Source of the DNA: Loktanella sp. DSM 29012
GTDB lineage: Bacteria; Pseudomonadota; Alphaproteobacteria; Rhodobacterales; Rhodobacteraceae
Length of the DNA: 64,000 bases
Direction: 5' to 3'
Assembly (NCBI RefSeq): GCF_900110705.1
Contig: NZ_FOEJ01000006.1
Coordinates: forward strand, 1 to 64,000
The notes beneath the pieces are model-generated. The model ran no database searches and had not been told where the DNA came from. It worked only from the letters and a program-made list of their open reading frames with translations. Of the stretch, positions 7,932 through 58,717 are shown piece by piece (position 1 is the first letter of the stretch; each line of letters starts with the position of its first letter). The position numbers and the translations under genes are program-made.

Positions 7932-7980
7932 GGGGGCGCTGCCCCCGGACCCCCGGGATATTTCGGGCCAGAAGAAAGGC
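7932..7980 (+). repeat. Dispersed intergenic repeat, copy 1
   Basis: A GGGGGCGCTGCCCCC hairpin is followed by GGACCCCCGGGATATTT and CCAGAAGAAA. It fills the gap between the convergent ATPase and LytM genes. It matches copy 2 (23642-23690, minus strand) over more than 40 bases with only a few differences. It may also end transcription. Confidence 0.85.
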
Positions 7981-9195
7981 TCAGGGCAGGAATTCGTTCG
8001 GATCGACCGAGTTCAGCCCGCGCCGCACCTCGAAATGCACGAATGTCGGGTCACCTGCGCCAACCTGACCCAGATTGCCGCCGCGTGCGACGCTGTCGCC
8101 TTTGGCGACGCTCAGGTTCTCGAGGTTGGTGTAGACGGTGAGCAGGTTGTCTGCATGTTTGACAACCACGATGGATGTGCCTGACGTGTCTTGTGTGACG
8201 GCTGCAACGGTGCCGCTGTCGGCGGCCTTAACCGTGGTGCCCGCGGTCGCCGCGATGTCGATGCCTTCGTTGCGCCCGGGGCTGTAGTCGCGGATGATCG
8301 CGCCAGCCAACGGCCTGACGAAACGTGCCTCGTTTGCTGCGGGTGTGGCCGCCGGGGCGGGGGCTGGCGGTGGAGGCGGCGGCGGTGCGGATGCTGTTTC
8401 CGACACTGTCGGGGCCGCTGTCGTCAGATCGGGTGCATCGGGCAATGTCACAGGTGCCGCGACGGATGGCGTGCTGGCGGGCAGGGGGGCCGCAGCCGAG
8501 GGTGGCACGGGCGATGTGCTGCCGATACCGGGGGCCGTGATCGGGCCGCCCGCAGGATCGGCGGCACCGCCGCCCTGCGGCACCAGAATGAACTGACCCT
8601 CGCGCACGGTGAGGCTGGAATCCAAACCGTTCCATTCTGCCAGCGTGCCGACGGGGACGTTGTACAGGCGGCTGATCGAAAACGCCGTTTCACCGCGTTC
8701 GACGCGATGGCGGATCGGTTGGGTGGCGGTCGTCTGGGCCGGTGACGCGGCCGGTACGGCCAGCCCGCCGGATGTGGCATCTGCGCGGTCCAGCGCCGTT
8801 GTTGCCACCGCGGTCACATCCAGCGGCACCGTCGTTTGTGCGCCCGGAACGCGGGTCGGCAAGGCCAGCACCTCGCCATCGCGCAGCGTGACGCCCTTTT
8901 CGATCCCGTTGAAACTGGCAAGCGTCGCGGGATCGACACCGACGCGGGATGCGATCGAGGCGACCGTATCGCCACGTCGCGCGACGGCGACCTGATAGTC
9001 GGCATAGGTGATGACGCCGCGCTGGTCGGGATCGGGTCGATCCGGCAGATTTCCCACCGCCGGCGATGTATCGAATGCGCCGGTGCGATCCCGCAAGTCG
9101 ATGTCCGGCAGGCCGGCGTCGCAGGCCGCCATCAAGGCGATCCCCGCGCAACTGAAGGTCAGGCGCAGGGCTGCGTTACGGCGGGTCTGGGTCAT
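7981..9195 (-). CDS. LysM/LytM lipoprotein, NlpD-like, degenerate M23 domain
   Basis: A 404-residue envelope lipoprotein that probably regulates cell-wall hydrolysis during division. A lipobox (IALMAAC, Cys25) ends the signal peptide. Two LysM domains (near residues 65-105 and 150-195) bind peptidoglycan, then a Pro/Ala-rich linker leads to a C-terminal M23/LytM domain. The zinc-site motifs look degenerate: the usual His of HxGxD is Asn (RNEGIDIAA) and the usual HxH is VHFEVRRG, so it probably activates an amidase rather than cutting itself, as NlpD and EnvC do. The ATG at 9195 has CAGGAG upstream. Confidence 0.83.
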   Translation of the reverse strand: MTQTRRNAALRLTFSCAGIALMAACDAGLPDIDLRDRTGAFDTSPAVGNLPDRPDPDQRGVITYADYQVAVARRGDTVASIASRVGVDPATLASFNGIEKGVTLRDGEVLALPTRVPGAQTTVPLDVTAVATTALDRADATSGGLAVPAASPAQTTATQPIRHRVERGETAFSISRLYNVPVGTLAEWNGLDSSLTVREGQFILVPQGGGAADPAGGPITAPGIGSTSPVPPSAAAPLPASTPSVAAPVTLPDAPDLTTAAPTVSETASAPPPPPPPAPAPAATPAANEARFVRPLAGAIIRDYSPGRNEGIDIAATAGTTVKAADSGTVAAVTQDTSGTSIVVVKHADNLLTVYTNLENLSVAKGDSVARGGNLGQVGAGDPTFVHFEVRRGLNSVDPNEFLP

Positions 9196-9247
9196 GGATG
9201 GGCTCCTGTCCACTGCGGGGTCCGTCTTGCGCGGGTTGGCCATCGTT

Positions 9248-9889
9248 TTAGTCCTCTCCGAGGCCTTCAATCAAGGGAACAAAGCGCACATCGCGCAATT
9301 CCGCGTAATCAAGGCCCTGTGGTGTACGTGTCACGCGGATCAGGGTCTGAACGGTATCTGACTGGCCCACGGGCAGCACCATGATCCCGCCCTCGCGCAA
9401 TTGCGCCAAAAGCGGGCCGGGCGGGTCCTCGGCTGCTGCGGTCAGAAGGATGCGGTCGAACGGGGCCTGTTCCGGCAACCCGTGGCTGCCGTCGCCGACC
9501 AATGCGGTGATGTTGTGCAGATCGAGCGCGTCAAAGATCGTCTGGGCCTCGGTCACGAGGCGACGGAAACGGTCCACCGTATAAACCCTGCGCGCGAGCT
9601 GGCTGAGGATCGCCGCCTGATAGCCTGACCCGGTTCCGATCTCGAGGACCTTGTGTCGGGGCTGAACATCGAGGGCCTGCGTCATGATCCCGACGACCGA
9701 CGGCTGGCTGATGGTCTGGCCGCAGGCAATGGGCAGCGGCATGTCCTCGTAGGCACGTTCGGCAAAGAGGCCCTTGTTGACAAATCGCGACCGGTCGATG
9801 CGTTCCATCGCTGTCAGCACGCGTTCGTTCGTCACCCCCTTGGACCTGAGGGCAAAGAGGAACTGCATCTGGGTTTGCGGATCGGTCAA
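9248..9889 (-). CDS. pcm: Protein-L-isoaspartate O-methyltransferase
   Basis: This enzyme uses S-adenosylmethionine to methylate damaged isoaspartyl residues so that they revert to aspartate. The 213-residue form has [18 protein letters not shown], the SAM motif [19 protein letters not shown] and [12 protein letters not shown] near the end. I chose the TTG at 9889, which overlaps the surE stop as TTGA, because related proteins begin with a short Thr-Asp-Pro leader before [12 protein letters not shown]; the alternative is the ATG at 9868. It is translationally coupled to surE, as in many proteobacteria. Confidence 0.9.
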
Positions 9890-17997: not shown

Positions 17998-18308
17998 CGC
18001 GGTGGGTCCGATCGGAAAGTCTCATACTACGGATTAACCATAGGGCGAATTTCGAGGGCGTCCTACATGCTTTGCGGAACGGCCTGTCTCGATTGTATAC
18101 ACCTGCGAAACAATGATTGACGGCCCCCCGGATTGGGTAGGCTATCGTCAATTGACAGTTGAAAAAACCGTCAGGATTTTCAGATTGTTAGGCGTTTTTC
18201 CGCCAGTCGAACCAGAATTGTGGATAATTTCGCTATCCCCTATCTGATTTCGACACTTTGACCGCCGGTGTTGCCGGAGAGCGTCAAAATATTGCCAGAT
18301 TCATCGCA
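17998..18308. other. 311-base gap without genes
   Basis: This stretch between the coiled-coil gene and alr has no convincing reading frame on either strand and is less GC-rich than its surroundings. It contains a perfect DnaA-box-like TTGTGGATAA at 18218-18227 and AT-rich runs such as TTGAAAAAACCG around 18160. It presumably holds the promoter of the minus-strand coiled-coil gene near 18000-18100. I see no tRNA or conserved RNA in it. Confidence 0.5.
18218..18227 (-). promoter_or_regulatory. DnaA-box-like site
   Basis: The minus strand reads TTATCCACAA, identical to the strong DnaA box consensus. It is a single site in a gene-free, relatively AT-rich gap. One box alone does not make an origin. 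Confidence 0.3.
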
Positions 18309-19364
18309 TTAGGACCCGAATCGGGTCGCTTCTCCGGCGTAGCGACGGCTGTAGCGCGCACCCAGGCTGGTCAGGATTTCATAGCCGATGGTGCCGGCCG
18401 CGCGGGCCAGGTCGTCAACGGTCTGATCCGGTGACAGGATGGACAGTGAAACGGGATCATCCCGCAGATCGGTGATATCCACCGTGATCAGATCCATCGA
18501 AATACGACCGACCAGCGGGCAGGGCTGTGACCCCGCCCAAAGCGTTGCCCGCCCCGATCCCGCGCGCAGCAACCCGTCGGCGTATCCGGCCGACAAGGTG
18601 GCGAGGCGCGTGGGACGTTCGGCCTGCCAGCTGTTCCCATAGCCCACGACCTCGCCTTCGGTCAGGTCGCGGATCTGCACGATCGGCAGATCGAGCCGGG
18701 CCACAGGCCGCGCCGCTGCAAAGGGCAGGCCACCATAAAGACCAATTCCGGGACGGCATTCATCAAAGTGATATTCGGACCCCAGCAGCATCCCGCCGGT
18801 CGCAGCAAGGCTGCGCGGTGTGGTGATGCCATCGGTCATCTGGTGAAACACGTCCAGCTGATAGGGATTCATGGGATGATCGGGTTCATCCGCGCAGGCA
18901 AGGTGAGACATCACCACGACAGGTTTGCGCCGAAGGGCGGGTTCGGCCACCTGTGCCCAGTCATCCCATTCCAGTCCCAGCCGGTTCATGCCGGTATCAA
19001 GCTGAAGACCAAAGGGATGGTCCGGCAGATCCCGAAAATGGCGGTCGATCTGTGACAGGCTGTTCAGGATCGGTGTCAGGTGGTGGTCCACCAGCAGCTG
19101 TGTGTCGCCTTTCATGTGGCCGGTCAGAACCCGTATCTGGGCCCGGTCGCCTAAGGCTGCGCGCAGGGCGGCACCTTCTTCGGCGACCGCGACGTAGAAG
19201 ATCCGCGCGCCCTGCTTTGCCAGCGCTGCCGCAACGCGGCCCGCCCCCAGGCCGTAACCGTCCGCCTTGACCACGGCAGCGGTTTCGCAGGAGGTCAGCG
19301 CGTTCAGGCTGCGCCAGTTTGCGCCCACGGCGCCGAGGTCGATCGTCAGATGTCCAGTGCTCAT
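18309..19364 (-). CDS. alr: Alanine racemase
   Basis: A PLP enzyme making D-alanine for peptidoglycan. The 351-residue protein begins [20 protein letters not shown], has the PLP lysine in [20 protein letters not shown] (near residues 32-51), and the C-terminal beta domain with GYADGLLR and [14 protein letters not shown], where Met follows the catalytic Tyr region. The ATG at 19364 fits the family; a frame extension of 22 codons upstream is not conserved. It lies a short distance after dnaB-linked genes on the same strand. Confidence 0.93.
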
Positions 19365-19426
19365 ACCTGCCTTGTGCCACTGTTTTGCGGGCTGGGCAAT
19401 CGGGAGGAGTAGCCAGCGGGGGTGAC

Positions 19427-19483
19427 GCATTTTCTGCGAAAATGCGGCGCCTCCGGCGGGAGTATTTCGGGCAAGATGATGCA
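19427..19483 (+). repeat. Dispersed intergenic repeat, copy 3
   Basis: A GCATTTTCTGCGAAAATGC hairpin is followed by CCTCCGGCGGGAGTATTTCG and GGCAAGATGATGC. It lies between alr and the ClpP-fold gene. The tail matches copies 4-7, while the hairpin is of a different, AT-rich type. Confidence 0.75.
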
Positions 19484-19516
19484 GGTGTCCGGTGCTGCCG
19501 GGGGTCGCGCGTCATC

Positions 19517-20284
19517 TTAGTCAGCCGTGACGATCCTGTATTCGGTCAGCTCCCCGGCGGTCAGCAGGTAGATTTCGTCAGGTGGGGTGACTAGCGCGTG
19601 CTGCATGACCAGCGGATCGACCCCCATGTCGTCGAGAAAGCTCATGACCTCGCCCTGGCCGCGCTGAATGTCCTCGACGGCGAGAAAGGCGGGCAGGGCG
19701 GTGTTTTCCCCAAAATAATGCTGATGCACGCCAACCAATGCGCCGTCCTCGACCTGTCGCGTGGTGCCGGACGACAGGATGTAGGGGCAGGCGGACAGGC
19801 AGATGTCCGTCGCTGTCATGCGCGTGCCGATCCCTGCGGCGCGCAGGGCACGACCAAGGGTCAGCGCATCGCTGACCGACCCGCCCGGACTGTTGAGAAA
19901 CGCCTGTTCCGGCGCGGGATCGACGGTCGCAAGAAAGGTGGCAAAGCGGTCGGCGTCACCCGGTGCAATGCTGCCCGTAAGGGTAATGACAGGTGCCCCG
20001 TTCCAGACCGTGTCGACGAATTCCAGCCGCGAGGGCATGTCCGTCGTTGCGGGGATCGGACGCGATCCTGGACGGGGTGCGCGCGGACTGACCTGGCTGG
20101 GATCATAGCGCCGGGTCTGGTCGCCGGGGCCCAGTGGTTCAGTCAGGCCGGGCGCGGTCGAGGGGCTTGCGATCTGCGGCAGGATGCGTGCCAGGTCAGA
20201 GCTGAGCATCACGCCCGCAAAGACGACCTGCAGCCCGAGGATCCATTTTAGCCAGCGGCCTGTCTGATGCGGTCTGGCCGTCAT
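19517..20284 (-). CDS. Membrane-anchored ClpP/crotonase-fold protein (COG3904-like)
   Basis: A 255-residue protein with an N-terminal membrane anchor (WLKWILGLQVVFAGVMLSSD) and a Pro-rich linker, then a ClpP-like domain. Visible motifs are FLNSPGGSVSDALTLGRALR (oxyanion loop near residues 131-150) and CLSACPYILSSGT with a Ser in the position of the ClpP nucleophile, followed by VGVHQHYF, where His may serve as base. Relatives are called predicted periplasmic proteins; no substrate is known. Its start overlaps the stop of the upstream gene by ATGA, so the pair is coupled. Confidence 0.72.
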   Translation of the reverse strand: MTARPHQTGRWLKWILGLQVVFAGVMLSSDLARILPQIASPSTAPGLTEPLGPGDQTRRYDPSQVSPRAPRPGSRPIPATTDMPSRLEFVDTVWNGAPVITLTGSIAPGDADRFATFLATVDPAPEQAFLNSPGGSVSDALTLGRALRAAGIGTRMTATDICLSACPYILSSGTTRQVEDGALVGVHQHYFGENTALPAFLAVEDIQRGQGEVMSFLDDMGVDPLVMQHALVTPPDEIYLLTAGELTEYRIVTAD

Positions 20285-21564
20285 GTGTCCGGCTCTTGGG
20301 CGGGCGGTGGTGGTGGCGGGACGGGCCGCGGCGCGCGATCAAGCGAAGTGTCCATGTCACGGATCGCCGTCACGGCCGCGCGCAGTTCGGCCAGGGTCAT
20401 GCTGTCCTCGGTGGCGGTGCCTTCGCGGCCGACACGGATCGCGGCCTGTGTGACGGCGAGGATCAGCACCAGCACGGCCGGAAGCAGGTCGATGGCGATG
20501 GCCCCCGCCCAACTGGGCACAAAGCTGCCGGCGTACTTGATCACGGCGTCTGCGGAAGAGATCGGCGTATAGCTGATGTCTGCAGGCGGCGTCATCGACA
20601 GCACGGCCTGTGCCGCCGATTGAAGCCCCTCGGCACGTTGGCGCAGCACGGCCAGCACGGCATCGATCGTTGCCTGCTGTCCGGCCCGCGTGGTGTCGTT
20701 GCTGCCGTCCAGTTGCGGCAGGACGACCGAATCCGCAAGGTCGGTGGCGGCGCGGCTGACCAGAGGCGCTACCGACAATTGCCGCAACTGCGTGATGACA
20801 TTGGCGAGGCGCACGGCCTCTTCGCTGAACGGCACCGATCGTGCCTCGACCGGACCTTGTTCCACGGTCAGCGCGCGCATCCGTGACAGGATCGCATTGC
20901 CTTCGACAAAGGCCTGTTCGACCAGGGGTTGCTGTGCGGTGATCTGGGCCTCGAGCGCCGTCAGCTCGTCCGATTTCTGGCGCAAGAGACGGAATACGGC
21001 CCCCTGACCGGCGAATCCCGAAAGCTGACCCGTTGCTTCTTGTTCGGACAGATCGTCAAAGGACTGCCGCACGCGGGCCACGTCACGCGCCAGCGATTGC
21101 GCGGATTGCGTGATCTCGTCCGCACGTTCGAGCGCGGCCTGGTAGTCCTGCACGGTTTCGGCCAGATGCTGTTCGACGGCGGCGGCCCCGGCCAGCGCTG
21201 CCGCGTTCAGCCAGGACGACATCGCAACGATGGCCAGCGACCCCAGCGCCATCGACAGCATCAGCCCGATCCGCGCGGCCCCGGTGCGCACAGCGGGCAA
21301 AAGGCGCATCATGTAGGACCAGAACACGAAGATCCCGACCGACACGGCCACCGAATAGGCAAGCGCCGCAAAGACCGACAGTGCACCGTTGTCATCCAGC
21401 AGCGATGACACGCCGAGGTAGGTATAGATGCCCGATGCCACGGCCAGCACACCCAGCGCCGTTCCCGTGATGCTGTCCAGCCAGTCGACATGGGATTGCA
21501 GGTCGCGGGCGTTGCGGATGCCGCGCGCCTGCGCACGGGACAGGCGGGGGTCGTCGTCGGACAT
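20281..21564 (-). CDS. Coiled-coil membrane protein, unknown
   Basis: A 427-residue protein I cannot assign. After a short N-terminal helix, four hydrophobic segments lie between about residues 30 and 125 (GTALGVLAVASGIYTYLGVS, then VFAALAYSVAVSVGIFVFWS, then a further pair). A long helical region follows (residues 125-330), and another membrane segment near 370-395 (AIAIDLLPAVLVLILAVTQA). The C-terminus is Pro-rich (RPVPPPPPPAQEPDT). It is coupled to the ClpP-fold gene, suggesting a membrane complex of a protease-like subunit and a sensor or scaffold. Confidence 0.6.
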   Translation of the reverse strand: MSDDDPRLSRAQARGIRNARDLQSHVDWLDSITGTALGVLAVASGIYTYLGVSSLLDDNGALSVFAALAYSVAVSVGIFVFWSYMMRLLPAVRTGAARIGLMLSMALGSLAIVAMSSWLNAAALAGAAAVEQHLAETVQDYQAALERADEITQSAQSLARDVARVRQSFDDLSEQEATGQLSGFAGQGAVFRLLRQKSDELTALEAQITAQQPLVEQAFVEGNAILSRMRALTVEQGPVEARSVPFSEEAVRLANVITQLRQLSVAPLVSRAATDLADSVVLPQLDGSNDTTRAGQQATIDAVLAVLRQRAEGLQSAAQAVLSMTPPADISYTPISSADAVIKYAGSFVPSWAGAIAIDLLPAVLVLILAVTQAAIRVGREGTATEDSMTLAELRAAVTAIRDMDTSLDRAPRPVPPPPPPAQEPDT

Positions 21565-21640
21565 GGGGGTGCTCCTGCTGGTTCAGCCCAAGATAGGCGG
21601 TGCTGAGCGGGATGCAAATAACGGGCGCGTGCGGTTTCGC

Positions 21641-22051
21641 CTAGGCCGGGTTCAAGACCTTGCGGAAGGCTGGACCGGGGTTTCGCCGGGCATAGCCCAT
21701 CGCCTCGTAGGCCGCCTGCGCGCCGGTATTGTCGGGATCAGTGCCGATGCTGACATATGCGCAATCCAGTCCGCGTGCATGTTCCTCGACAGCGGTGATG
21801 ATCGCACGCCCCAGCCCACGCCCGCGCAGGTCGGGTACGACAAAAATGTGGTGCAGGTTCAATCCGCGTCGTACGATCAGCCCCCACAGCCAGGGCGGTG
21901 TGCCAAAGAGATCGCGCGTCAGGGCATCCGGGCAGGCGTGGCTGTCGTCGCCATGAAATGCGCCAAGCGCGTCCGACATGACGACCAGATCGGGGATGTC
22001 TGCCGGCGTGACGACACGGATATCAAAATCCGACGTCGCCGCCGCCGCCAT
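21641..22051 (-). CDS. GNAT family acetyltransferase
   Basis: A 136-residue N-acetyltransferase with the acetyl-CoA loop VVPDLRGRGLGRAIITAVEE (near residues 74-93), preceded by NLHHIF, and the C-terminal DPDNTGAQAAYEAMGYARR. The substrate is unknown. I chose the ATG at 22051, which places the start inside the last codons of dnaB in another frame; a still earlier in-frame start at 22081 is less likely. The overlap suggests coupling to dnaB translation. Confidence 0.83.
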   Translation of the reverse strand: MAAAATSDFDIRVVTPADIPDLVVMSDALGAFHGDDSHACPDALTRDLFGTPPWLWGLIVRRGLNLHHIFVVPDLRGRGLGRAIITAVEEHARGLDCAYVSIGTDPDNTGAQAAYEAMGYARRNPGPAFRKVLNPA

Positions 22052-23525
22052 TGTCCTGCCAAGGCTTGACCAGGTTGCCAAAGCGGGTGAACCGGCCCTC
22101 GAACGACAGTTCCACCGTGCCGATGGGGCCGTGACGCTGTTTGCCGATGACGACCTCTGCCTTGCCGCGCAGGCGTTCCATTTCCTCTTGCCACAGGGCG
22201 ATCTTGTCCATCTCGTGGTCGCCGGGTTTTTCGCGTTCCTTGTAGTATTCCTCGCGGAACACGAACATCACGACGTCCGCATCCTGCTCGATCGAGCCGG
22301 ATTCGCGCAGGTCCGACAGCTGCGGGCGCTTGTCCTCGCGGGATTCGACCTGACGCGACAGCTGGGACAGGGCGATCACGGGGATGTTCAGCTCCTTGGC
22401 GATGGCCTTCAGGCCCATCGTGATCTCCGAGATTTCGTTCACCCGGTTTTCGCCCTTGCCGGTGCCGCGCACCAGTTGCAGGTAGTCGACGACCAGCACG
22501 TCCAGCCCGTGGGTCCGTTTCAGACGGCGCGCCCGCGCGGCCAACTGGGAAATCGGCAGCGCCGGGGTGTCGTCGATGAACAGCGGGCAGGATTCCAGTT
22601 TCTTGGCGGCATCCACGAAACGGCGGAACTCGACCTCTGACATGTCGCCGCGGCGGATCTGTTCGGACGGCACTTCCGCCGCCTCCGACAGGATGCGGGC
22701 GGCCAGCTGTTCTGCGGACATCTCGAGACTGTAGAACCCCACCACGCCACCGTTGACCGCACCCTCGGATCCGTCCGGCAAGGTGCCTTTCTTGTAGGCC
22801 TTGGCGATGTTGTAGGCGATGTTGGTGGCCAGCGACGTCTTGCCCATCGACGGACGCCCGGCAAGGATCAGCAGGTCGGATTTGTGCAGCCCGCCCAATT
22901 TCTTGTCCAGATCATTCAGACCCGTAGACACGCCAGCCAGGCCACCGTCGCGCTGGTAGGCGGCGTTGGCGACGTTGACCGCATCCGTGACCGCCCGCAG
23001 AAACGACTGGAAACCACTGTCGGCCGTCCCGCTTTCCGCCAGCGCATAAAGAGCCTGTTCCGCTTCGACGATCTGGTCCTTGGGTTCGGACGCCACATCG
23101 ACCTTGCAGGCCTTTGATGCGATCTCCTGACCGACCTGGATCAATTGCCGCCGGATCGCGAGGTCGTAGATCATCTGGGCATAGTCGCGTACCGCAAAGG
23201 CAGACACGGCAGAGGCCGCCAGCCGGACAAGATAGGCACCGCCGCCCAATTCCTTCAGGCCCTCATCCTCTTCCATGTAGCTTTTCAGGGTAACGGGGCT
23301 GGCCAGCGCGTTCTTGGCCAGCCGGGCCGCTGCGCATTCGAAAATCCGCGCATGTACCGGATCGTAGAAATGCTGCGGGCCGACGATGGATGCAATCCGG
23401 TCAAAGATATCGTTGTTGGTCAGGATCGCGCCAAGCAACTGCTGTTCGGCCTCGATCGAATGGGGCATCTGGTCGATGCTGGCCTCGTGCACGCCCGTCG
23501 CATTGAAAGTTGTTGCCTCGTTCAT
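22023..23525 (-). CDS. dnaB: Replicative DNA helicase DnaB
   Basis: The hexameric 5'-3' helicase of the replication fork. The 500-residue protein begins MNEATTFNATGVHEASIDQM, has the N-terminal primase-interacting domain (PHSIEAEQQLLGAILTNNDI), a linker, and the RecA-like domain with Walker A LAGRPSMGKTSLATNIAYN (near residues 220-238) and VVDYLQLVRG. The C-terminus ends in a Gly/Asp tail. The ATG at 23525 follows a GGGGACAGGG site. A DnaA-box-like sequence lies about 80 bases upstream. No intein or other insertion is seen. Confidence 0.95.
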   Translation of the reverse strand: MNEATTFNATGVHEASIDQMPHSIEAEQQLLGAILTNNDIFDRIASIVGPQHFYDPVHARIFECAAARLAKNALASPVTLKSYMEEDEGLKELGGGAYLVRLAASAVSAFAVRDYAQMIYDLAIRRQLIQVGQEIASKACKVDVASEPKDQIVEAEQALYALAESGTADSGFQSFLRAVTDAVNVANAAYQRDGGLAGVSTGLNDLDKKLGGLHKSDLLILAGRPSMGKTSLATNIAYNIAKAYKKGTLPDGSEGAVNGGVVGFYSLEMSAEQLAARILSEAAEVPSEQIRRGDMSEVEFRRFVDAAKKLESCPLFIDDTPALPISQLAARARRLKRTHGLDVLVVDYLQLVRGTGKGENRVNEISEITMGLKAIAKELNIPVIALSQLSRQVESREDKRPQLSDLRESGSIEQDADVVMFVFREEYYKEREKPGDHEMDKIALWQEEMERLRGKAEVVIGKQRHGPIGTVELSFEGRFTRFGNLVKPWQDNGGGGDVGF

Positions 23526-23602
23526 GCCCTGTCCCCTGATCCCCGGTCTGCTGTGTCGACGGGTGTAACCCAGCCGTCGGCCTGCCTCAAATTGTATGTT
23601 TC

Positions 23603-23611
23603 TGTGGATAA
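23603..23611 (-). promoter_or_regulatory. DnaA-box-like site upstream of dnaB
   Basis: The minus strand reads TTATCCACA, the DnaA box core consensus, about 80 bases before the dnaB start codon. It may let DnaA regulate the helicase gene. This rests on a nine-base match only. Confidence 0.4.
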
Positions 23612-23641
23612 CGCGATCGGCTGGATTCGCGCAGAACCCAG

Positions 23642-23690
23642 TTCTTCTTCTGGTCTGAAATATCCCGGGGGTCCGGGGGCAGCGCCCCCG
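23642..23690 (-). repeat. Dispersed intergenic repeat, copy 2
   Basis: Read on the minus strand, GGGGGCGCTGCCCCC is followed by GGACCCCCGGGATATTTCAG and ACCAGAAGAAG. It lies between pyrE and dnaB, in the same direction as both. It is the closest relative of copy 1. Confidence 0.85.
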
Positions 23691-23746
23691 GTCCGGCATC
23701 AGGATATGGTGATCAAACCAGGACGGTGATCAGACCACGAAATTGA

Positions 23747-24424
23747 TCAGACCATGATACCGGGTTGCCATCCGTTCGGATCGCGCAGGTAGGCCTCGAC
23801 CGTGTCCAGGGTCGCCGCGTCAAAGCTTTGGTTGGCGCGCGCCACGTCCAGCACGTCCCACCAGGTGCACAGAGACACCAGCTTGACCCCGTGGGCGGCC
23901 AGTGATTCCTCGACGTCAGGATAGATGCCGTAATAGAAAATCACAGCCGTGGCGTTGCAGTTCGCGCCTGTGTCGCGGATCGCATCCACGAATGACAGTT
24001 TCGATCCGCCATCGGTGGTCAGATCCTCGACCAGCAGCACGCGCTGGCCTTCTGACATCACGCCTTCGATCCGCGCATTGCGACCGTAACCTTTGGGTTT
24101 CTTGCGCACATAGGTCATCGGCAGCGCCATGCGTTCGGCCACCAGCGCCGAGAAAGGGATGCCTGCGGTCTCACCACCCGCCACGTTGTCAAAGGCCTCG
24201 AACCCGCAGTCGCGCATGATGCTGATGGTCAGGAAATCCATCAGCGTGGAACGGATACGCGGAAAAGAGATCAGCTTGCGGCAGTCGACATAGGTCGGGG
24301 CCTGTTTGCCAGAAGCATGGGTGAACGGCGTCGTCGCATTGAAATCGATCGCGCCGATTTCCAGCAGCATGGACGCGGTCAGGCGGGCGATTTCGGATTT
24401 TTCGGGAAAGGACGACGGGATCAT
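23747..24424 (-). CDS. pyrE: Orotate phosphoribosyltransferase
   Basis: This enzyme joins orotate and PRPP to give OMP in pyrimidine synthesis. The 225-residue protein contains [20 protein letters not shown] (residues 34-53) and [20 protein letters not shown], the PRPP motif [20 protein letters not shown] near residues 129-148, and [15 protein letters not shown] in the flexible loop. The length and loop resemble the alphaproteobacterial long form. It lies after pyrC on the same strand; the two act at nearby steps of one pathway and are probably co-transcribed. Confidence 0.94.
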
Positions 24425-24528
24425 GGCGCGGCTCCTGGCTGTGGGTTCGCGCGGGTTTAGGGCCTTTGGGACCGGATGTTAAGAGGCAGCACAGCCCCTG
24501 TGCTGCCCCATCGGCCCGTTATCCCGGG

Positions 24529-25581
24529 TCAGTCCACGACGCACCAGTGCAGTGGGAAACCGGGGTCAAACACTGTCACCGGCCCATCATCGGTGGCGAT
24601 ATGATCGGGATAGGTGACGGGATCGCCCTTGCGCAGCGTGATCGTATCCGCGTTCGGCGGCAGGCGGTAGAACGCAGGCCCGTTGAGCGAGGCAAAGGCC
24701 TCGAGCTTGGGCAATTTCCCGGCCGCATCGAACACCTCGGCCAGACAGGACATGGTGTTCGGCGCGCTGAACACCCCGGCGCAGCCGCATTCTTGCAACT
24801 TGCGTGCATCCGTATGCGGGGCGCTGTCGGTGCCCAGAAAAAACCGCACGTCACCCGACACGGCAGCCTGCACCAGTGCGACACGGTGCTTTTCGCGCTT
24901 GGCCACCGGCAGGCAATAGTAATGCGGGCGAATGCCACCGGCCAGAATGTGATTGCGATTGATGATCAGGTGATGGGTCGTGATCGTCGCGGCCAGATTT
25001 TTCGGCGTGTCGCGGACATAATCCACCGCATCCTCAGTGGTGACGTGTTCCATAATGATCCGCAGGTCAGGGTTCTTCTTGCGGATCGGCTTGAGGACCT
25101 TGTCGATGAACACCGCCTCGCGGTCAAAAATATCGACAGCGCTGTCAGTGACTTCGCCGTGGACGCACAACTGCATGCCGATTTCGGCCATCCGGTCCAG
25201 CACCGGTCGCACCTTGTCGAAATCGCGCACGCCCGATGCAGAATTCGTCGTGGCCCCGGCAGGATAGAGTTTGACAGCCGTTGCAATCCCTTCGGCGTGG
25301 GCGCGCGCCACATCGTCGGGATCCGTGTCCTCGGTCAGGTAGAGGGTCATCAGCGGCGTGAACTGCGCATCTGCGGGCATCGCGTCCATGATCCGGGCGC
25401 GATAGGCCGTCGCATCACGGGCCGTCACGACAGGCGGCACGAGGTTCGGCATCACGATGGCGCGGCCGAAATGCCGTGTGGTTTCGGGCAGGACCGCGCG
25501 CAGCATGGCACCGTCCCGCAGGTGCAGGTGCCAGTCGTCGGGGCGGCGGATCGTCAGTTCGGTCAAATCTCTATCAGGCAT
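24529..25581 (-). CDS. pyrC: Dihydroorotase, class II
   Basis: A zinc amidohydrolase closing N-carbamoyl-aspartate to dihydroorotate. The 350-residue protein shows the metal motif [13 protein letters not shown] (residues 15-27), MPNLVPPV, the carbamylated-Lys region [23 protein letters not shown] and [15 protein letters not shown]. This is the single-domain class II type as in E. coli, not the PyrC2 paired with PyrB. Start ATG at 25581. It is followed by pyrE with about 100 bases between. Confidence 0.94.
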
Positions 25582-25631
25582 GGCGCGTCTTTATACGCAA
25601 CCACCGGCCCTGACCAGATCACACCGACCGA

Positions 25632-26585
25632 TCAGACCGCGTCGATCTCGGCCTTGGCGGATTTGGGCAGCGGTTTGCCCATTTCCTGCAACTGCTTGGC
25701 AAAGAACGGGTTCGGCCCGCGCGCCAGAACGGCATAACATAGCTGTACGGCCAGTGCGTCATGCCCGGTGTCCAGCAGACGCTTGTGCAGGTTGCGCAGG
25801 TAGGCACCGGACTGCTTGCGCGCACGCATCAACTGACCAAAGCGGGCATGGGTCAGGGTGCCGTCCATGGCCGCCCGGATCACGTCATCCAGCACGCGCA
25901 GCGCCTCGAACATGACATCCATGCGACCGCCCAATCCCGATACGCGCAACATCGACACGTTGGGTTTCGTGAACAAGGCGGCATGCATCGCGTCCATGCG
26001 CTGCTGCGGGCAATAGGCGATATAGGCGCGCTGGGCCGCGTCGATCATGTCGGGGGCATAGCCATAGCGGCGGGTAAAGTTCTGGCCGCGGTATTTCACG
26101 AACCGCATGTCCCAGCCGGCAACAGCCGGGTCCAGCGTTGCCTGTGGCCGCAATGCCAGCACGCGCGCACCGGGTGCCGCAACGGCAAAGGCGGCAGCCG
26201 CATAGCCGCCCGCTTGGGCACCATAGAACAGCACGTCCTCGAAATCCTCGAAAAACCCGTCGTCGATCAGACGGTCGAAATGCCGGTAAACGCGTTCATC
26301 GCGAAACCAGCTTTCGCCGCGGCTGATGATGGCCAGGTGCGACCAGCCTTCGCGCCGGGCAAAGGCGAAGCCACGGGGGGCTGCATCGGGCAGGCTCATC
26401 ACTTCGGTCGCATTCTCGAACGTCACGAGCAGTTTCGGACCCGCATCCAGAAAGGCCGCTCCGAAATCATCCCCAAGCGGTGTGTAGGACCCGTGATCTT
26501 CGACCAGTTCCTCGAGTGCCACGAGCCAATCGTCGATTTCCAACCCCTTGAGGTCCGTCTCGAAGGTCAATCTGTGGTCGATCAT
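25632..26585 (-). CDS. Alpha/beta-hydrolase-like protein of unknown function
   Basis: A 317-residue soluble protein of a family widespread in Rhodobacteraceae and sometimes labelled phosphoadenosine phosphosulfate reductase, although I see none of that enzyme's cysteine or PP-loop motifs. The segment EDVLFYGAQAGGYAAAAFAV (near residues 125-144) looks like an alpha/beta hydrolase elbow in which the nucleophile position is Gln or Ala rather than Ser, so it may be non-catalytic. Other conserved runs are GWSHLAIISRGESWFRDERV and RYGYAPDMIDAAQR. The ATG at 26585 has GGAGA upstream. Function is unknown. Confidence 0.6.
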   Translation of the reverse strand: MIDHRLTFETDLKGLEIDDWLVALEELVEDHGSYTPLGDDFGAAFLDAGPKLLVTFENATEVMSLPDAAPRGFAFARREGWSHLAIISRGESWFRDERVYRHFDRLIDDGFFEDFEDVLFYGAQAGGYAAAAFAVAAPGARVLALRPQATLDPAVAGWDMRFVKYRGQNFTRRYGYAPDMIDAAQRAYIAYCPQQRMDAMHAALFTKPNVSMLRVSGLGGRMDVMFEALRVLDDVIRAAMDGTLTHARFGQLMRARKQSGAYLRNLHKRLLDTGHDALAVQLCYAVLARGPNPFFAKQLQEMGKPLPKSAKAEIDAV

Positions 26586-26779
26586 GGCAGTTCTCCGCGG
26601 TTCAGACATCTCAGATGCCGTCGCATTGGGGCGAAATTAGGCAGTCGGCGCGCCGCTTTTGGGACATTGTGCGGTGACGCCCTTAGCGCAAATCTACGGC
26701 CTTTGGCACGGGGCGTCCATGCCGTGCTTGACCTCTGCGCCCTGTGGTGCAGGTTTGAGGCACGAGGGGGAGGGCGACA

Positions 26780-27682
26780 ATGGAATTTGACAGTATCGAT
26801 GCCGTGCAGGCCGGGCTGGCGGAACAGGACTACATCTGCGGGCGCAGCCTTGCCACGGTGACATTCCTGGCGCTCAAGCTGGGCCGCCCCCTGTTCCTCG
26901 AAGGTGAGGCCGGCACAGGCAAGACCGAAATCGCCAAGGCGATCGCCGCGGCGCTGGGGCGCCGGCTGATCCGGCTGCAATGCTACGAAGGGCTGGACGC
27001 GGCGTCAGCGGTCTACGAGTGGAACTTTGCCGAACAGATGATCGCCATCCGCGCGGCAGAGGCAACGGGCGGCACCGACCGGAATGCGCTCAAATCAGAG
27101 CTATTTACCGAAGACTACCTGATCGAACGTCCTTTGTTGCAGGCCATGCGGCCGCAACCGGGCGGCGCGCCCGTGCTGCTGATCGACGAATTGGACCGGA
27201 CGGATGCGCCCTTCGAGGCCTTCCTGCTCGAGGCGCTCTCGGATTTTCAGGTCACGATCCCGGAACTGGGCACAATCGAGGCACCAGAGCCGCCCATCGT
27301 GATCCTGACCTCGAACCGCACCCGCGAAGTGCATGACGCTCTCAAACGTCGCTGTCTCTATCATTGGGTCGATTACCCGGATTTCGACCGGGAAATTGAC
27401 ATCCTGCACGCCCGCGCGCCGCAGGCATCTGCGGCCCTGTCGCGCGAGGTCGTGGCCTTCGTTCAGCGTCTGCGCACCGAGGATCTGTTCAAGAAACCGG
27501 GGGTTGCCGAAACAATCGACTGGGCGAAATGCCTGCTTGCACTGGATGTGATCGACCTGTCGCCCGCGGTGATCGCCGACACATTGGGCGCGATCCTGAA
27601 GTATCAGGACGACATCCAAAAGCTCGAAGGCTCCAAGGCCAAACAGATCCTGGACGAGGCACGCGCTTCGATTCCTGTCTGA
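26780..27682 (+). CDS. MoxR family AAA ATPase, CoxD-like
   Basis: A 300-residue AAA+ chaperone of the MoxR group; CoxD of carboxydotrophs is needed to assemble the Mo-Cu site of CO dehydrogenase. Walker A is LEGEAGTGKTEIAKAIA (residues 40-56), Walker B is LLIDELDRTDAPFEAFLLEA and sensor 1 is ILTSNRTREVHDALKRRCLY. It stands first in the cox-like cluster, followed after a repeat copy by its VWA partner. Together they probably remodel the molybdenum hydroxylase. Confidence 0.88.
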   Translation: MEFDSIDAVQAGLAEQDYICGRSLATVTFLALKLGRPLFLEGEAGTGKTEIAKAIAAALGRRLIRLQCYEGLDAASAVYEWNFAEQMIAIRAAEATGGTDRNALKSELFTEDYLIERPLLQAMRPQPGGAPVLLIDELDRTDAPFEAFLLEALSDFQVTIPELGTIEAPEPPIVILTSNRTREVHDALKRRCLYHWVDYPDFDREIDILHARAPQASAALSREVVAFVQRLRTEDLFKKPGVAETIDWAKCLLALDVIDLSPAVIADTLGAILKYQDDIQKLEGSKAKQILDEARASIPV

Positions 27683-27736
27683 TGCATCATCTTGCCGAAA
27701 ATACTCCACGGGGGTCTGGGGGTGTGAAACCCCCAG
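27683..27736 (-). repeat. Dispersed intergenic repeat, copy 4
   Basis: On the minus strand CTGGGGG-N7-CCCCCAG is followed by ACCCCCGTGGAGTATTTTCG and GCAAGATGATGCA. It fills most of the gap between the MoxR and VWA genes, reading against them. Confidence 0.8.
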
Positions 27737-27746
27737 TCGCCGCCGG

Positions 27747-29066
27747 ATGGTAGAACTGGCCGATCTCGACCTGCCGGAACACCCGAAGCTGGCGCAGAAC
27801 ATCGCGCATTTCGCGCGGGCGCTCCGTAGGGCGGGTCTGCCCATCGGGCCAGGGCGGGTGATCGACGCCGTGCGCGCGGTGCAGGTCGCCGGGTTCACCG
27901 ACCGGATGGATTTCTACTGGACCCTGCATGCCTGTTTCGTCTCGAAACGAGAGGAACAGGCGACCTTTGGCCAGATCTTTCGCCTGTATTGGCGCGATCC
28001 GCGCTACCTTGAACAGATGATGTCCTTCATGCAGCCCATGGTGCGTGGTGTGGCCGAGGAACGGACAGCGCAGGCCGCCGAAAAACGCGCGGCAGAGGCG
28101 CTGCTGGATGGTGAGGAACGTGACGCCCCCCAGCCAGAGGACGAGGCCAAGGACGACGAAATCCTGCTGGACATCGACGCAAGCCAGACCATCAGCACCC
28201 AGGAAAGGTTACGCAGTCTGGATTTCGAACAGATGAGTCTGGCCGAAATGGCTGCTGCAAAACGCATTCTTGCGCAGATGTCGCTGCCTGTGAAACCGCT
28301 GCAATCGCGGCGCACGCAGGCCTTGCCGGGGCGTATTCCCGACTGGCGCGGCACCCAGCGGATGGCGATGCGGCGCGGCGGCGAGATCACGGATTTTGCG
28401 ACCAAACGCAGGCGGTTGCGCTATCCCAATCTGGTGGTGCTGTGCGACATCTCGGGATCCATGTCGCAATATTCCCGCGCCGTGCTGCATTTCGTGCACG
28501 GTGTCGCCAATGCGCAGGGGCAGGGCTGGGCGCAGGTCCATGCCTTTACCTTTGGCACGCGGCTGACGAACATCACCCGTCATCTGCGCACCCGCGACGT
28601 GGACGCGGCGCTGTCCGCCGCCGGGGCAGAGGCGCAGGATTGGGAAGGCGGGACGCGCATCGCCGCCTGCCTGCACGATTTCAACCGCGACTGGTCGCGC
28701 CGCGTCATGGGGCAGGGGGCGGTCGTGTTGTTGATCACCGACGGGCTGGACCGTGACCCGACAGCCGATCTGGGGCGCGAAATGCAGCGCCTGTCATTGA
28801 CCGCGCGCCAGCTGATCTGGCTGAACCCGCTTTTGCGGTGGGACGGTTTCGCGCCCAAGGCCAAGGGGATCGCTGCGATGCTGCCGCATGTGTCCAGCTT
28901 TCGGTCGGGGCATAACATCGCCTCGCTCGCCGGGCTTGCGCAAGCCCTGGCGCGGCCCGATGATACGGGCGAGAAACAGCGACTGATGGCGGCCCTCGCA
29001 GACAATGCAACCGACGCACCGCAGAACCCGTTTGCGTTCACCCGCGCGGCCAATACCATAGGATGA
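27747..29066 (+). CDS. VWA domain protein, CoxE-like
   Basis: A 439-residue protein with a C-terminal von Willebrand factor A domain. The metal-binding MIDAS is seen as VVLCDISGSMSQYSRAVLHF (near residues 230-249), with later WEGGTRIAACL and VVLLITDGLD. The middle region (residues 100-170) is acidic and helical. CoxE proteins work with MoxR-type CoxD in maturing aerobic CO dehydrogenase. It is followed after seven bases by the XdhC-like gene, so one operon is likely. Confidence 0.87.
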   Translation: MVELADLDLPEHPKLAQNIAHFARALRRAGLPIGPGRVIDAVRAVQVAGFTDRMDFYWTLHACFVSKREEQATFGQIFRLYWRDPRYLEQMMSFMQPMVRGVAEERTAQAAEKRAAEALLDGEERDAPQPEDEAKDDEILLDIDASQTISTQERLRSLDFEQMSLAEMAAAKRILAQMSLPVKPLQSRRTQALPGRIPDWRGTQRMAMRRGGEITDFATKRRRLRYPNLVVLCDISGSMSQYSRAVLHFVHGVANAQGQGWAQVHAFTFGTRLTNITRHLRTRDVDAALSAAGAEAQDWEGGTRIAACLHDFNRDWSRRVMGQGAVVLLITDGLDRDPTADLGREMQRLSLTARQLIWLNPLLRWDGFAPKAKGIAAMLPHVSSFRSGHNIASLAGLAQALARPDDTGEKQRLMAALADNATDAPQNPFAFTRAANTIG

Positions 29067-29073
29067 TCCTGCC

Positions 29074-31040: not shown

Positions 31041-31146
31041 TGACGCGACGCAGCATCCGCCGATGCCGCAATGCAGCGTCAAGAAGGCCTTCTCAGACGT
31101 GAAATTGGGTGCTTAACTGATCCCAATGCGAAAGGGAGAGTTGCAC

Positions 31147-31629
31147 ATGAAACTGACGATGAAGGTGAACGGCAGGGAGGTGACCGGAGAGGTCGAGGGC
31201 CGCACACTGCTGGTGGATTTCCTGCGGTCCGACCTGCGTCTGACCGGGACGCATGTGGGCTGCGACACGTCGCAATGCGGTGCCTGCACCGTGCACGTGA
31301 ACGGAGAGCTGGTGAAATCCTGCACCATGTTCGCGGCAGAGGCCGATGGCGCAGAAATCGCCACCATTGAGGGTGCGGCTGCAGAGGACGGCACGCTGTC
31401 CGCGATCCAGCAGGCGTTTCAGGATCATCACGGTTTGCAGTGCGGCTATTGCACGCCCGGTATGGTGATGACGGCCGCAAGCCTGCTGAAGGAAAACCCC
31501 AAGCCCACCGAGCACGAGGTGCGCCAGTACCTCGAGGGCAATATCTGCCGCTGCACGGGCTACCACAACATCGTCAAGGCGATCATGGCGGCCAGCGGAC
31601 AAGAGATGCCCGCGATGGCGGCCGAGTAA
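31147..31629 (+). CDS. coxS: CO-dehydrogenase-like small subunit (2Fe-2S)
   Basis: The 160-residue iron-sulfur subunit of a molybdenum hydroxylase. The plant-type [2Fe-2S] cluster is [20 protein letters not shown] (residues 36-55) with a fourth Cys in VKSCTMF; the second cluster is [17 protein letters not shown] and [15 protein letters not shown] near residues 98-145. The ATG at 31147 follows AAGGGAGAG. It starts the S-L-M order typical of form II CO dehydrogenases; form I uses M-S-L. A repeat copy separates it from coxL. Confidence 0.93.
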
Positions 31630-31648
31630 TTTGCGGGCGGCGCGCAGG

Positions 31649-31690
31649 GAGGCGTGCCGCCGGTTCGAGTATTTTTGGCAAGATGATGCG
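31649..31690 (+). repeat. Dispersed intergenic repeat, copy 5
   Basis: GGAGGCGTGCCGCCGGTTCG is followed by AGTATTTTTGGCAAGATGAT and GCG, between coxS and coxL and reading with them. The hairpin is poorly conserved in this copy, but the tail matches copies 3, 4 and 6. Confidence 0.7.
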
Positions 31691-31734
31691 CAGGCGGGCC
31701 GAGAGGCGTCGATGCGCGGTTCAGGGAGAGAGCA

Positions 31735-34116: not shown

Positions 34117-34130
34117 GTGAAAGTGAGGGA

Positions 34131-34177
34131 CCGGGGCGCTGCCCCGGACCCCGGAGTATTTTCGGCAAGATGATGCG
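34131..34177 (+). repeat. Dispersed intergenic repeat, copy 6
   Basis: CCGGGGCGCTGCCCCGG hairpin, then ACCCCGGAGTATTTTCGGCA and AGATGATGCGG, between coxL and coxM in their direction. It is the clearest full copy of the AGATGATG subtype. Confidence 0.85.
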
Positions 34178-34211
34178 GTGATCCCGCAGATCCGCCAAGA
34201 GGAGAGACATA

Positions 34212-35000: not shown

Positions 35001-35108
35001 GCGGAACCCCGCCACCGGTCCTGCGCAGCGGGAACGGTGGTGATTTCCAAGGGTTGATCAGGTGTCCCCGGCATGTGCCGGGGGCACCTTTTGTTTGCGA
35101 GGAACACC

Positions 35109-37886: not shown

Positions 37887-38816
37887 ATGCAAGCACTTGT
37901 CATTATCGTTGTCGTCGCTGTTCTCGGCTTTTTCGGGTATCAGTATTTTGTAGATGGGCAGGACCCTCAGGCTGTTGTGTCGGGCCAGACGGATGACGTC
38001 GCCGTCACCTCAGAAGACGCAGAGGCGGCCGTCGAAGACGCTGCGGCAGACACGGCAGCCGCAGTCGAAGACGCGACCGATGAAGCTGCCGCCGCAGCAG
38101 ATGCAGCGGTTGACGCCATGACGGACGTAGCAGGCGACGCGACCGAAGAAACGGCTGCTGCCGCCGAAGCAGCCGCTGCCGAAGCCGAAGCGTTGGCCGC
38201 CGAAGCTGATGCCGCTGCTGCCGATGCCGCCGCAGCCGTGCAGGAGGCCGCAGATGCAGCCGCCGCCGAGGTTGAAGCTGCAACCGAGGATGCCGCCGCT
38301 GCAACCGAAGACGCGGCTGCTGACGCCACCGCAGTTGTCGATGATGCGACCGCCGCCACCGAAGACGCAGCCGCTGACGCCGCCGCAGCTGTCGACGACG
38401 CGACCGCCGCAACGGAAGAAGCCGCCGCTGATGCCGCCGCTACCGTTGATGCCACCGCAGATGCAGCAGCCGAGGAGGTCGACGCAGCCGTAGATCAAGC
38501 TGATGCAGCAATGGACGAAGCCGTTGCACCTGACGCGGAGGTGGCTGCCGAGGCAGAGGTCGCAACCGCCGAGACAACGACCGAAGGCGACGCAGCCGCC
38601 GCCGATGCCGGCACTGACACAGCCGAGGTTCCGCTGAGCGAATTGCTGACCCCCGAAGGTTTCGACGCGGATACCGTCATTGCGCGTATCGAGGCAAGCG
38701 AGCTGGATACGATGCAGAAAACAGTCTTGACCCGCGCCGCCGAAACGGTGCGCGACAATCCCGACATGCTGTCCAGCGTGCTGGATCAGATCCGTGCCGC
38801 GATGGGCGTGAACTGA
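37887..38816 (+). CDS. Membrane-anchored Ala/Asp/Glu-repeat protein
   Basis: A 309-residue protein with one N-terminal membrane helix (ALVIIVVVAVLGFFGYQYFV), about 220 residues of Ala/Asp/Glu/Val/Thr sequence, and a small C-terminal domain (LLTPEGFDADTVIARIEASE to the end IRAAMGVN). The middle contains imperfect repeats of about 16 residues such as ATEDAAADATAVVDDATA, suggesting an amphipathic, apolipoprotein-like helix. It is very acidic with no Cys. ATG at 37887 with AGAAGGA upstream was chosen; the long frame upstream overlaps infC. The function is unknown; envelope tethering is possible. Confidence 0.78.
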   Translation: MQALVIIVVVAVLGFFGYQYFVDGQDPQAVVSGQTDDVAVTSEDAEAAVEDAAADTAAAVEDATDEAAAAADAAVDAMTDVAGDATEETAAAAEAAAAEAEALAAEADAAAADAAAAVQEAADAAAAEVEAATEDAAAATEDAAADATAVVDDATAATEDAAADAAAAVDDATAATEEAAADAAATVDATADAAAEEVDAAVDQADAAMDEAVAPDAEVAAEAEVATAETTTEGDAAAADAGTDTAEVPLSELLTPEGFDADTVIARIEASELDTMQKTVLTRAAETVRDNPDMLSSVLDQIRAAMGVN

Positions 38817-44940: not shown

Positions 44941-44976
44941 CGCATCATCTTGCCTCAAATACTCCCGCCAGAGGCG
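44941..44976 (-). repeat. Dispersed intergenic repeat, copy 7
   Basis: On the minus strand GCCTCTGGCGGGAGTATTTG is followed by AGGCAAGATGATGCG. It overlaps the last seven codons and the stop of the P450 gene and abuts the Lrp-type gene stop. Confidence 0.7.
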
Positions 44977-57001: not shown

Positions 57002-57062
57002 TCGCCCCTGACGCCATCACACGAAGCTTGACGTGCGCATCGGTGCGGGGCCAGATCGGCAG

Positions 57063-58655
57063 ATGTTGAGCCAGAAATCCGACTATGCCCGGACCCGTGA
57101 TGCGTTTCGCTGGGATATTCCGCGCCACTACAACATCGGCGTTGATTGTTGCGACCGCGTCGCGGACTTGAGTCCGGATGCGGCCGCGATCATCGACGCC
57201 TCCGGTGACAATCCGCGCACCGTGACATTTGCCCGGTTGCGCAGCCTCAGCAATCAGATGGCAAGGCTGCTGTCACGCCACGCAAGCGCGGGCAGCCGGA
57301 TCGGCGTGCTGCTGCCGCAATCGGTCGAAACAGCGATGACACACCTTGCAGCGTTCAAGCTGGGGGCCATTTCCATCCCGTTGTTCACCCTGTTCGGGCC
57401 TGACGCCCTGCGCCACCGATTGCGCGATTCGGGTGCCTGCGTGCTGGTGACCGACGCTGCGGGGGCAGCCAAGATCGACGCGATCCGCGCTGATCTGCCC
57501 GATCTGGTCTGCGTCATCGTGATCGGCCCGGATCTGGATGCCACCCTGGCAGGATTGCCCGATGATTTCACCCCTGCCCGGACAGCAGCGGACGACCCTG
57601 CGCTGCTGATCTACACCTCTGGCACCACTGGCGCACCCAAGGGGGCGCTGCACGCCCACCGCGTTCTGCTGGGCCATCTGCCGGGCGTCGAGATGAGCCA
57701 CGATTTCCTGCCGCAACCCGGTGACCGGATCTGGACGCCGGCCGATTGGGCATGGATTGGCGGATTGCTGGATGTGCTCCTGCCCGCATTGCATCACGGC
57801 ATTCCCGTCGTGGCCTGCCGCTTTGCCAAGTTCACGGCAGAGGCAGCCTTTGCCTTGATGCGGGATCATGGTGTGCGCAACGCGTTTCTGCCGCCGACCG
57901 CGCTCAAGATCATGCGGCTGATGCCGGATCCGCCGCAGTTGAACCTGCGCTCTGTCGCCAGTGGCGGCGAAACGCTGGGCACAGAGCTGATCGACTGGGG
58001 CCAGCGGGTGCTGGGGTGTACGATCAACGAATTTTACGGCCAGACCGAATGCAACATGATCGTCAGTTCGTGTGCGGCACTGGCACCGGCTGTCCCCGGC
58101 GTAATGGGGTTTGCTGTGCCCGGTCATGATGTGCAGGTCATCGATCCCGACGGCCAGCCCTGCCCAGTCGGGGCAGAGGGCGATATCGCCTGCCGCAGTC
58201 CCGACCCGGTCATGTTCCTGCGCTACTGGAACAATCCGGCTGCGACAGAGGCGAAGATGCGCGGCAACTGGCTGCTAACCGGTGATCGTGGCACATGGTG
58301 CCCGGATGGGCGCATCCGGTTCAAGGGACGGGACGATGACATCATATCATCGGGCGGTTACCGGATCGGTCCTGCGGAAATCGAAGATTGTCTGCTGACG
58401 CATCCTGCCGTGCAGATGGCCGGCGTCGTCGGTGCCCCCGATCCAATCCGGGGCGAGGTGATCGTGGCATTCGTGCAACTGGTGTCAAGTGCGGTGGGGG
58501 AAGATGCACTTGCCGACACGCTGATCGCGCATGTTCGCAATCGGCTGGCTGCCCATGAGGCACCGCGGCGCATCATCTTTGCAGGCTGCCTGCCACTGAC
58601 CACCACAGGCAAAATCATCCGCGCCGATCTGCGGGCGCAACTGGCGCAGGGCTGA
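57063..58655 (+). CDS. AMP-dependent acyl-CoA synthetase
   Basis: A 530-residue adenylate-forming enzyme activating a carboxylic acid as acyl-AMP and then acyl-CoA. Motifs: the P-loop LLIYTSGTTGAPKGALHAHR (near residues 180-199), NEFYGQTECNMIVSSC (near 323-338), LLTGDRGTWCPDGRIRFKGR (near 405) and the catalytic Lys in TTTGKIIRADL close to the end. Relatives include acetyl/propionyl-CoA and medium-chain synthetases; the substrate is not predictable. I chose the ATG at 57063; a GTG 30 bases upstream is possible. Confidence 0.88.
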   Translation: MLSQKSDYARTRDAFRWDIPRHYNIGVDCCDRVADLSPDAAAIIDASGDNPRTVTFARLRSLSNQMARLLSRHASAGSRIGVLLPQSVETAMTHLAAFKLGAISIPLFTLFGPDALRHRLRDSGACVLVTDAAGAAKIDAIRADLPDLVCVIVIGPDLDATLAGLPDDFTPARTAADDPALLIYTSGTTGAPKGALHAHRVLLGHLPGVEMSHDFLPQPGDRIWTPADWAWIGGLLDVLLPALHHGIPVVACRFAKFTAEAAFALMRDHGVRNAFLPPTALKIMRLMPDPPQLNLRSVASGGETLGTELIDWGQRVLGCTINEFYGQTECNMIVSSCAALAPAVPGVMGFAVPGHDVQVIDPDGQPCPVGAEGDIACRSPDPVMFLRYWNNPAATEAKMRGNWLLTGDRGTWCPDGRIRFKGRDDDIISSGGYRIGPAEIEDCLLTHPAVQMAGVVGAPDPIRGEVIVAFVQLVSSAVGEDALADTLIAHVRNRLAAHEAPRRIIFAGCLPLTTTGKIIRADLRAQLAQG

Positions 58656-58670
58656 GGGGGTCGCTGTTTT

Positions 58671-58717
58671 TCAAATATCCCGGGGGAGGTCTGCAAGACC
58701 GGGGGCTGGCCCCCTCC
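58671..58717 (-). repeat. Dispersed intergenic repeat, copy 8
   Basis: On the minus strand GGGGGCCAGCCCCC is followed by GGTCTTGCAGACC and then CCCCCGGGATATTTGAAAAA. It lies just after the acyl-CoA synthetase stop and is more divergent than copies 1 and 2. Confidence 0.65.

Follow-up and report, generated by a model that had tools for sequence, protein, structure and literature searches.

A constrained intergenic element at gene ends in Loktanella and other Rhodobacteraceae

The window studied here is a stretch of 64,000 nucleotides from Loktanella sp. DSM 29012 (Rhodobacteraceae; contig NZ_FOEJ01000006.1, positions 1 to 64,000). It includes a "cox" cluster of the carbon-monoxide-dehydrogenase type, with genes for Fer2_2, MoCoBD, FAD_binding_5 and VWA_CoxE proteins, and a family of short dispersed repeats. 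The repeat is an element of about 60 bases that consists of a GC hairpin and a 22-bp core. The core is composed of a head, the letters TATTT, two free bases (NN) and a 12-base tail. All eight sites of the window have a GC-rich hairpin and, directly after it, GGGATATTT or (G)GAGTATTT; the stem of copy 5 is weak. The core occurs as type A, GAGTATTTNNGGCAAGATGATR, in five copies and as type B, GGATATTTNNRACCAGAAGAAG, in two (Table 1). The window contains five exact matches to the A core and two matches to the B core, and 100 shuffles gave none of either.

The first-pass annotation had described this family and divided its tails into two subtypes, one in copies 1, 2 and perhaps 8, the other in copies 3-7. 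The family is real and larger than was noted, but the subtype split was wrong: GGCAAGATGATG is found at copies 2, 4, 5, 6 and 7, CCAGAAGAA at copies 1 and 3, and copy 8 has neither. The presence of copies in both orientations and their placement at gene ends were described correctly, including two copies inside one operon (31667 and 34154).

Table 1. Copies of the element in the window (positions are those of the whole stretch)
Copy	Core type	Positions	Strand	Composition and place
1	B	7932..7977	+	G5/C5/C5 hairpin 7932-7955, core 7956-7977
2	A	19427..19482	+	AT-rich palindrome 19427-19445, mini-hairpin GCCTCCGGCGG 19449-19459, core 19460-19481
3	B	23644..23691	-	core 23644-23665, G5/C5/C5 hairpin 23666-23691
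4	A	27684..27736	-	core 27685-27706, hairpin 27707-27736; gap between AAA-ATPase gene and VWA_CoxE gene
5	A	31649..31689	+	weak stem 31649-31666, core 31667-31688; gap between coxS-like and coxL-like genes
6	A	34131..34176	+	G4/C4/C4 hairpin 34131-34153, core 34154-34175; gap between coxL-like and coxM-like genes
7	A	44942..44975	-	core 44943-44964, mini-hairpin 44965-44975; convergent gene gap
8		58671..58717	-	three-arm hairpin and head GGGATATTT, neither tail type; degenerate or other

The whole genome (3.42 Mb) has 64 type A matches with up to three mismatches, 41 of them mismatch-free, and 47 type B matches at the same threshold. Type A copies with a single mismatch mostly have A in place of the last G. 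Neither the A and B patterns read backwards nor the core pattern with one N fewer had any match in this genome. With one script pattern, 111 distinct copies were collected from the fetched stretches. Counted by position over these copies, about 18 letters are near-invariant and two are free. By inspection, both strands carry copies along the large contigs, and strand polarity was set aside as a reading. Matches are confined to seven of the 21 contigs into which the genome is divided; no match falls in the remaining 14, which add up to 412,619 bases. We dropped chromosome-only placement as a general rule, because large plasmids of other genera (in Roseinatronobacter, Roseobacter ponti and Paracoccus denitrificans) carry the element or a hairpin and head of its kind joined to a different tail. 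Most copies are single; inverted pairs within 250 bp were observed twice among the own loci and four times, tail to tail, among the 14 copies of genome G276.

Evidence on the nature of the core comes from a sister species (genome G122) that is 94% identical to Loktanella sp. DSM 29012 over window positions 27000-35100. Through their flanks, 100 of the 111 copies were paired with their orthologs; the other 11 had no locus among those fetched from the sister genome. In these 100 pairs, substitutions affect four of 799 sites at core positions 1-8 and three of 1000 sites at positions 12-21, five of 100 at position 11, nine of 100 at position 22, and 34 of 200 at NN. In the flanks they affect 176 of 2498 sites at bases -65 to -41 and 39 of 492 directly after the core, and in the 40 bases preceding the core 220 of 3980. 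Positions 1-8 and 12-21 taken together (7/1,799) are thus about 18 times more constant than the flanks (215/2,990; Fisher p = 7e-36). Purifying constraint thus acts on the core at about 100 places in this pair of genomes, and the two inner bases of the core are nearly free. Neutral or freshly copied repeats would not be expected to show a constant core with a drifting pair inside it, and the pattern suggests that something reads the element.

The same comparison bears on mobility. The copies of the sister genome were initially found with a one-mismatch pattern, which could hide decayed copies. Therefore the expected sites of seven of the 11 unpaired copies were fetched by synteny; the remaining four could not be placed. 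The element is present at all seven, with a few differences (one site has an extra T and one differs in a head letter and in NN-tail). No empty site was found in the sister genome among the 107 testable copies: all 107 persist, 100 by flanks and seven by synteny. A search for PF01797, the domain of transposases of the REP-associated tyrosine transposase (RAYT) type, where REP stands for repetitive extragenic palindrome, detected it in none of nine genomes of the genus, the own one included, in none of four other genomes of the family and in three of eight genomes of the class. The family is not mobile at present, and RAYT-driven mobility was rejected on both grounds. The first-pass annotation had suggested a mobile or structural repeat, and mobility is not supported today. 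It had also treated invariant presence between close strains as evidence against the family; the presence is indeed invariant in the sister species, which counts against present mobility and not against the family being real.

Placement was assessed for 110 of the 111 copies using a simple codon-model gene caller, and 107 of the 110 lie outside called genes. Codirectional gaps hold 39 sense and 30 antisense copies, which is not a significant excess of sense copies (p = 0.34), and antisense copies are about as exact as sense ones. Convergent gaps hold 34 copies, with 25 expected from gene-end counts. Only four copies are in divergent gaps, a depletion in comparison with the gaps of the window that are at least 50 nt long (4/107 vs 10/39; p = 3e-4). 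Two of these four (L081 3585-3606 and L208 1542-1563) are upstream of genes that, from the look of their sequences, we take to resemble ilvC and leuA of branched-chain amino-acid synthesis. At gene ends on the hairpin side, the stop codon lies 30-45 nt ahead of the core in 33 of 73 cases (counted by eye), so that the space between them is taken up by the hairpin. On the tail side, 41 of 64 facing stop codons are no more than 15 nt away. At L007 161-1717, one in-frame A copy is near the 3' part of a called open reading frame (ORF) that presumably resembles BchB, ahead of a BchH-like ORF; this copy may reflect an error in the called ORF. Judging by these two ORFs, genes for photosynthesis appear to be present in the genome.

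The part upstream of the core is variable. It can be a GCCTCCGGCGG mini-hairpin, a G-run/C-run hairpin with a second C-run and with or without an intervening hairpin, an AT-rich palindrome, an ordinary terminator-like stem, or a weak stem or T-stretch only. In the window, a palindrome, GATTTTTCGCGAAAAATC, also occurs twice without a core, about 58 bp apart, at 59075-59145; like palindromes precede several copies of the element elsewhere. A parser that required a G-rich arm detected an arm pair in 61 of 110 copies. Of these, 27 have a short linker, and in 25 of the 27 the G-run and the second C-run are exactly complementary (mean 8.7 and maximum 17 in 10,000 shuffles), the matched sets being G4-C4-C4, G5-C5-C5, G6-C6-C6 and GGAGG-CCTCC-CCTCC. 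The G-run is thus able to pair with one C-run or the other, and the hairpin may have two states.

Several RNA-level explanations of the structure were considered. When 12 segments of the window were folded, their z-scores ranged between -2.75 and +1.06. A terminator consensus scan of window positions 18000-36000 found 16 sites (11.1 expected by shuffling) with none of the five scanned copies among them, and a canonical terminator was rejected. Two A copies fold with a hairpin inside the core, GUAUU...GAUGC; it was rejected because type B and other dialects lack the pairing letters. Scans with Rfam 15 revealed no known RNA family at the copies, either in the window, where only four tRNAs were found, or in 20 loci of the element, where the single match was elsewhere. 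This match is 5_ureB_sRNA (127 bits) at L073 2740-3029, about 0.5 kb off an element core at about L073 3532-3553. Readings of the core as a sigma-54-, IHF- or serine-recombinase-like site seemed not to fit in spacing or symmetry and were set aside.

Two other repeats were observed in the window. Two tRNA-Asp(gtc) genes, 113 bp apart, are inside a 90-bp direct repeat of 97% identity (58845-59047). At 38012-38497, in an ORF called at 37887-38816, there are 17 imperfect 54-nt direct repeats (60-83% to the reference) that code for an Ala/Asp/Glu-rich sequence.

Relatives have the element at the same places, often with other letters. Type A matches with up to one mismatch occur in five of nine Loktanella genus genomes. 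In the coxL-coxM gap the element was found in the same orientation at all eight loci recovered from seven other genomes of the genus; one of these cores is type A and seven are non-A (e.g., GGGATATTTCTGGCAAGAAGAAG, AAAGTATTTCTGACCAGAAGAAG and GAGGTATTTTTGACCAGAAGAAG). In the coxS-coxL gap it is present at seven of eight recovered genus loci. Differing and missing cores at orthologous gaps indicate that, over longer times, sites change their letters and some disappear. One relative in the genus, G123, has four coxL-coxM-like regions (L108, L110, L119) that are about 80% identical to the window; three of them share a contig and the fourth is on a different one.

Over the family, 28 of 80 coxM loci have a core-like match. 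There are 43 such matches in total (two being overlapping readings of one site) against five in reversed sequence, and some of them are in genes and chance-like. At 17 of the 80 loci the match is just upstream of coxM in the same orientation; the carriers include Phaeobacter italicus, Ruegeria marisrubri, Puniceibacterium antarcticum and Oceaniglobus trochenteri. Type A matches with up to three mismatches were found in 75 of 120 family genomes. A more general pattern, TATTTNNNNNMAGAWGAWR, has matches in 96 of 149 family genomes and at least 10 copies in 58 of them (counted by eye), with a maximum of 136; control patterns in the same 149 genomes gave at most three per genome. Many genomes of the family have few or no matches to this pattern; they may lack the element or have a dialect that the pattern does not cover. 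Among 140 genomes of other alphaproteobacterial families, none has at least 10 copies and none more than seven, with controls reaching five. Lineages use different core dialects, each coherent within a genome: among the matches listed, the tail ends with AACAGAAGAAR in 26 of 26 copies of genome G290, with CAAAGAAGAAR in 14 of 14 copies of G276 and with RACAAGATGAAG in 25 of 26 copies of G272.

The reading that we favour, tentatively and at somewhat less than an even chance, is a fixed gene-end element of one alphaproteobacterial family with a reader that acts on DNA and makes the element a boundary at the gene end. A trans-acting sequence-specific factor would contact the head and the tail and leave out the two bases between them. 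Bound to DNA beside an extruding GC hairpin, this protein would mark the boundary, which may stall RNA polymerase or absorb supercoiling that arrives from either side. If the factor shifted its specificity and the sites followed, dialects would arise. Action at the DNA level is preferred for two reasons: antisense copies are about as common and as exact as sense copies, and divergent gaps are avoided.

The main rival is an mRNA 3'-end module, in which the hairpin and the U-tract (UAUUUYY) end, process or protect transcripts, as do intercistronic hairpins that give unequal mRNA stability (PMC6238624, in the part used here, has an RNase E motif and cites work on the puf hairpin), and in which an RNA-binding protein, an RNase or a small RNA recognises the tail. 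Like an intrinsic terminator or an intercistronic stabilising hairpin, the element has a GC stem and then a T-rich stretch, and it occurs downstream of stop codons and within operons. In most modules a stem is near TATTT or abuts it, which is compatible with the terminator or mRNA-end module that the first-pass annotation had proposed, and sense copies inside operons between cox subunit genes recur across genera. The complementary arms fit this explanation and can be read at the RNA level too, and the letters TT at NN, which are commoner in sense (20/39) than in antisense (7/30) copies (p = 0.025), hint at an RNA role. On the other side are the absence of terminator-like calls among the five scanned copies, the fold z-scores, which run from negative to positive, and antisense copies as frequent and as exact as sense ones. 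A fixed 12-base tail after the T-stretch is, to our knowledge, not part of known terminators. We consider an mRNA 3'-end module less probable than a reader on DNA, against which the readable arms and the TT excess nevertheless count. Other points also weigh against such a reader. NN is not wholly free, being TT in 42 of 111 copies and mixed otherwise; several copies have no clear strong hairpin; three are inside genes as called; and in the gap at 27684 the full core is kept at only two of six recovered genus loci. No reader of the element is known, and the coexistence of A and B in one genome would have to mean one reader that accepts both or two readers.

A relic mobile family, REP- or MITE-like (MITE, miniature inverted-repeat transposable element), which some transposase spread long ago and which is now static, would account for the dispersal, the gene-end placement, the subfamilies and the inverted pairs. 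In form the element is non-coding, structural and REP-like, as had been proposed: like REPs and bacterial interspersed mosaic elements, it is short, intergenic and hairpin-bearing, has about 100 copies in both orientations, almost all outside genes, and forms some inverted pairs. Unlike them, it has a non-palindromic 22-mer as its conserved part, which lies beside a variable hairpin, stays in place and is constrained. REPs linked to RAYT have a GTAG- or GTGG-type head 5' of the palindrome (PMC2817692, in the part used here), whereas the aligned copies of the element lack such a head and have their conserved letters 3' of the hairpin. Purifying constraint around a free NN is not expected of dead copies; besides, no testable copy has an empty counterpart, and PF01797, the only transposase family searched, is missing from the nine genus genomes. 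A relic origin is therefore improbable. Still less probable, indeed very doubtful, is a signal of the DNA uptake type, similar to the DNA uptake sequences (DUS) of Neisseriaceae, which biased uptake and recombination would maintain. DUS have dialects and an association with terminators (PMC3630211, as far as used here), and the element likewise has lineage dialects, near-exact copies, both orientations and gene-end placement. We know of no counterpart in DUS of the free two-base spacer and the hairpin arms, and almost all copies of the element are outside genes. Its number is also not in the thousands: about 111 copies in 3.4 Mb, and no more than 136 by the general pattern in any of the 149 family genomes, compare with 2,245 to 5,918 per genome for the DUS dialects counted in the same part of that source.

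The element may belong to a class of gene-end sites of Rhodobacteraceae, dispersed through the genome, that has not been described before; in the open-access literature, within the portions seen, we recognised no paper describing the motif. Such a class would combine about 20 fixed letters around a free dinucleotide with a three-arm hairpin, work in either orientation, and have a reader that changes its specificity, with concerted dialect switching over the whole genome. We propose it with caution, as a possibility that falls short of even odds. Dispersed bacterial repeats are often taken as selfish or passive, and here about 100 sites keep their letters while the inner pair drifts. Thus something seems to read these sites, which opens a testable hunt for the reader in a family some of whose members are tractable in the laboratory. 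The element could explain gene-end insulation or the setting of mRNA ends in a GC-rich lineage, and its dialects are a natural experiment on how numerous scattered sites change in step with the factor that recognises them.

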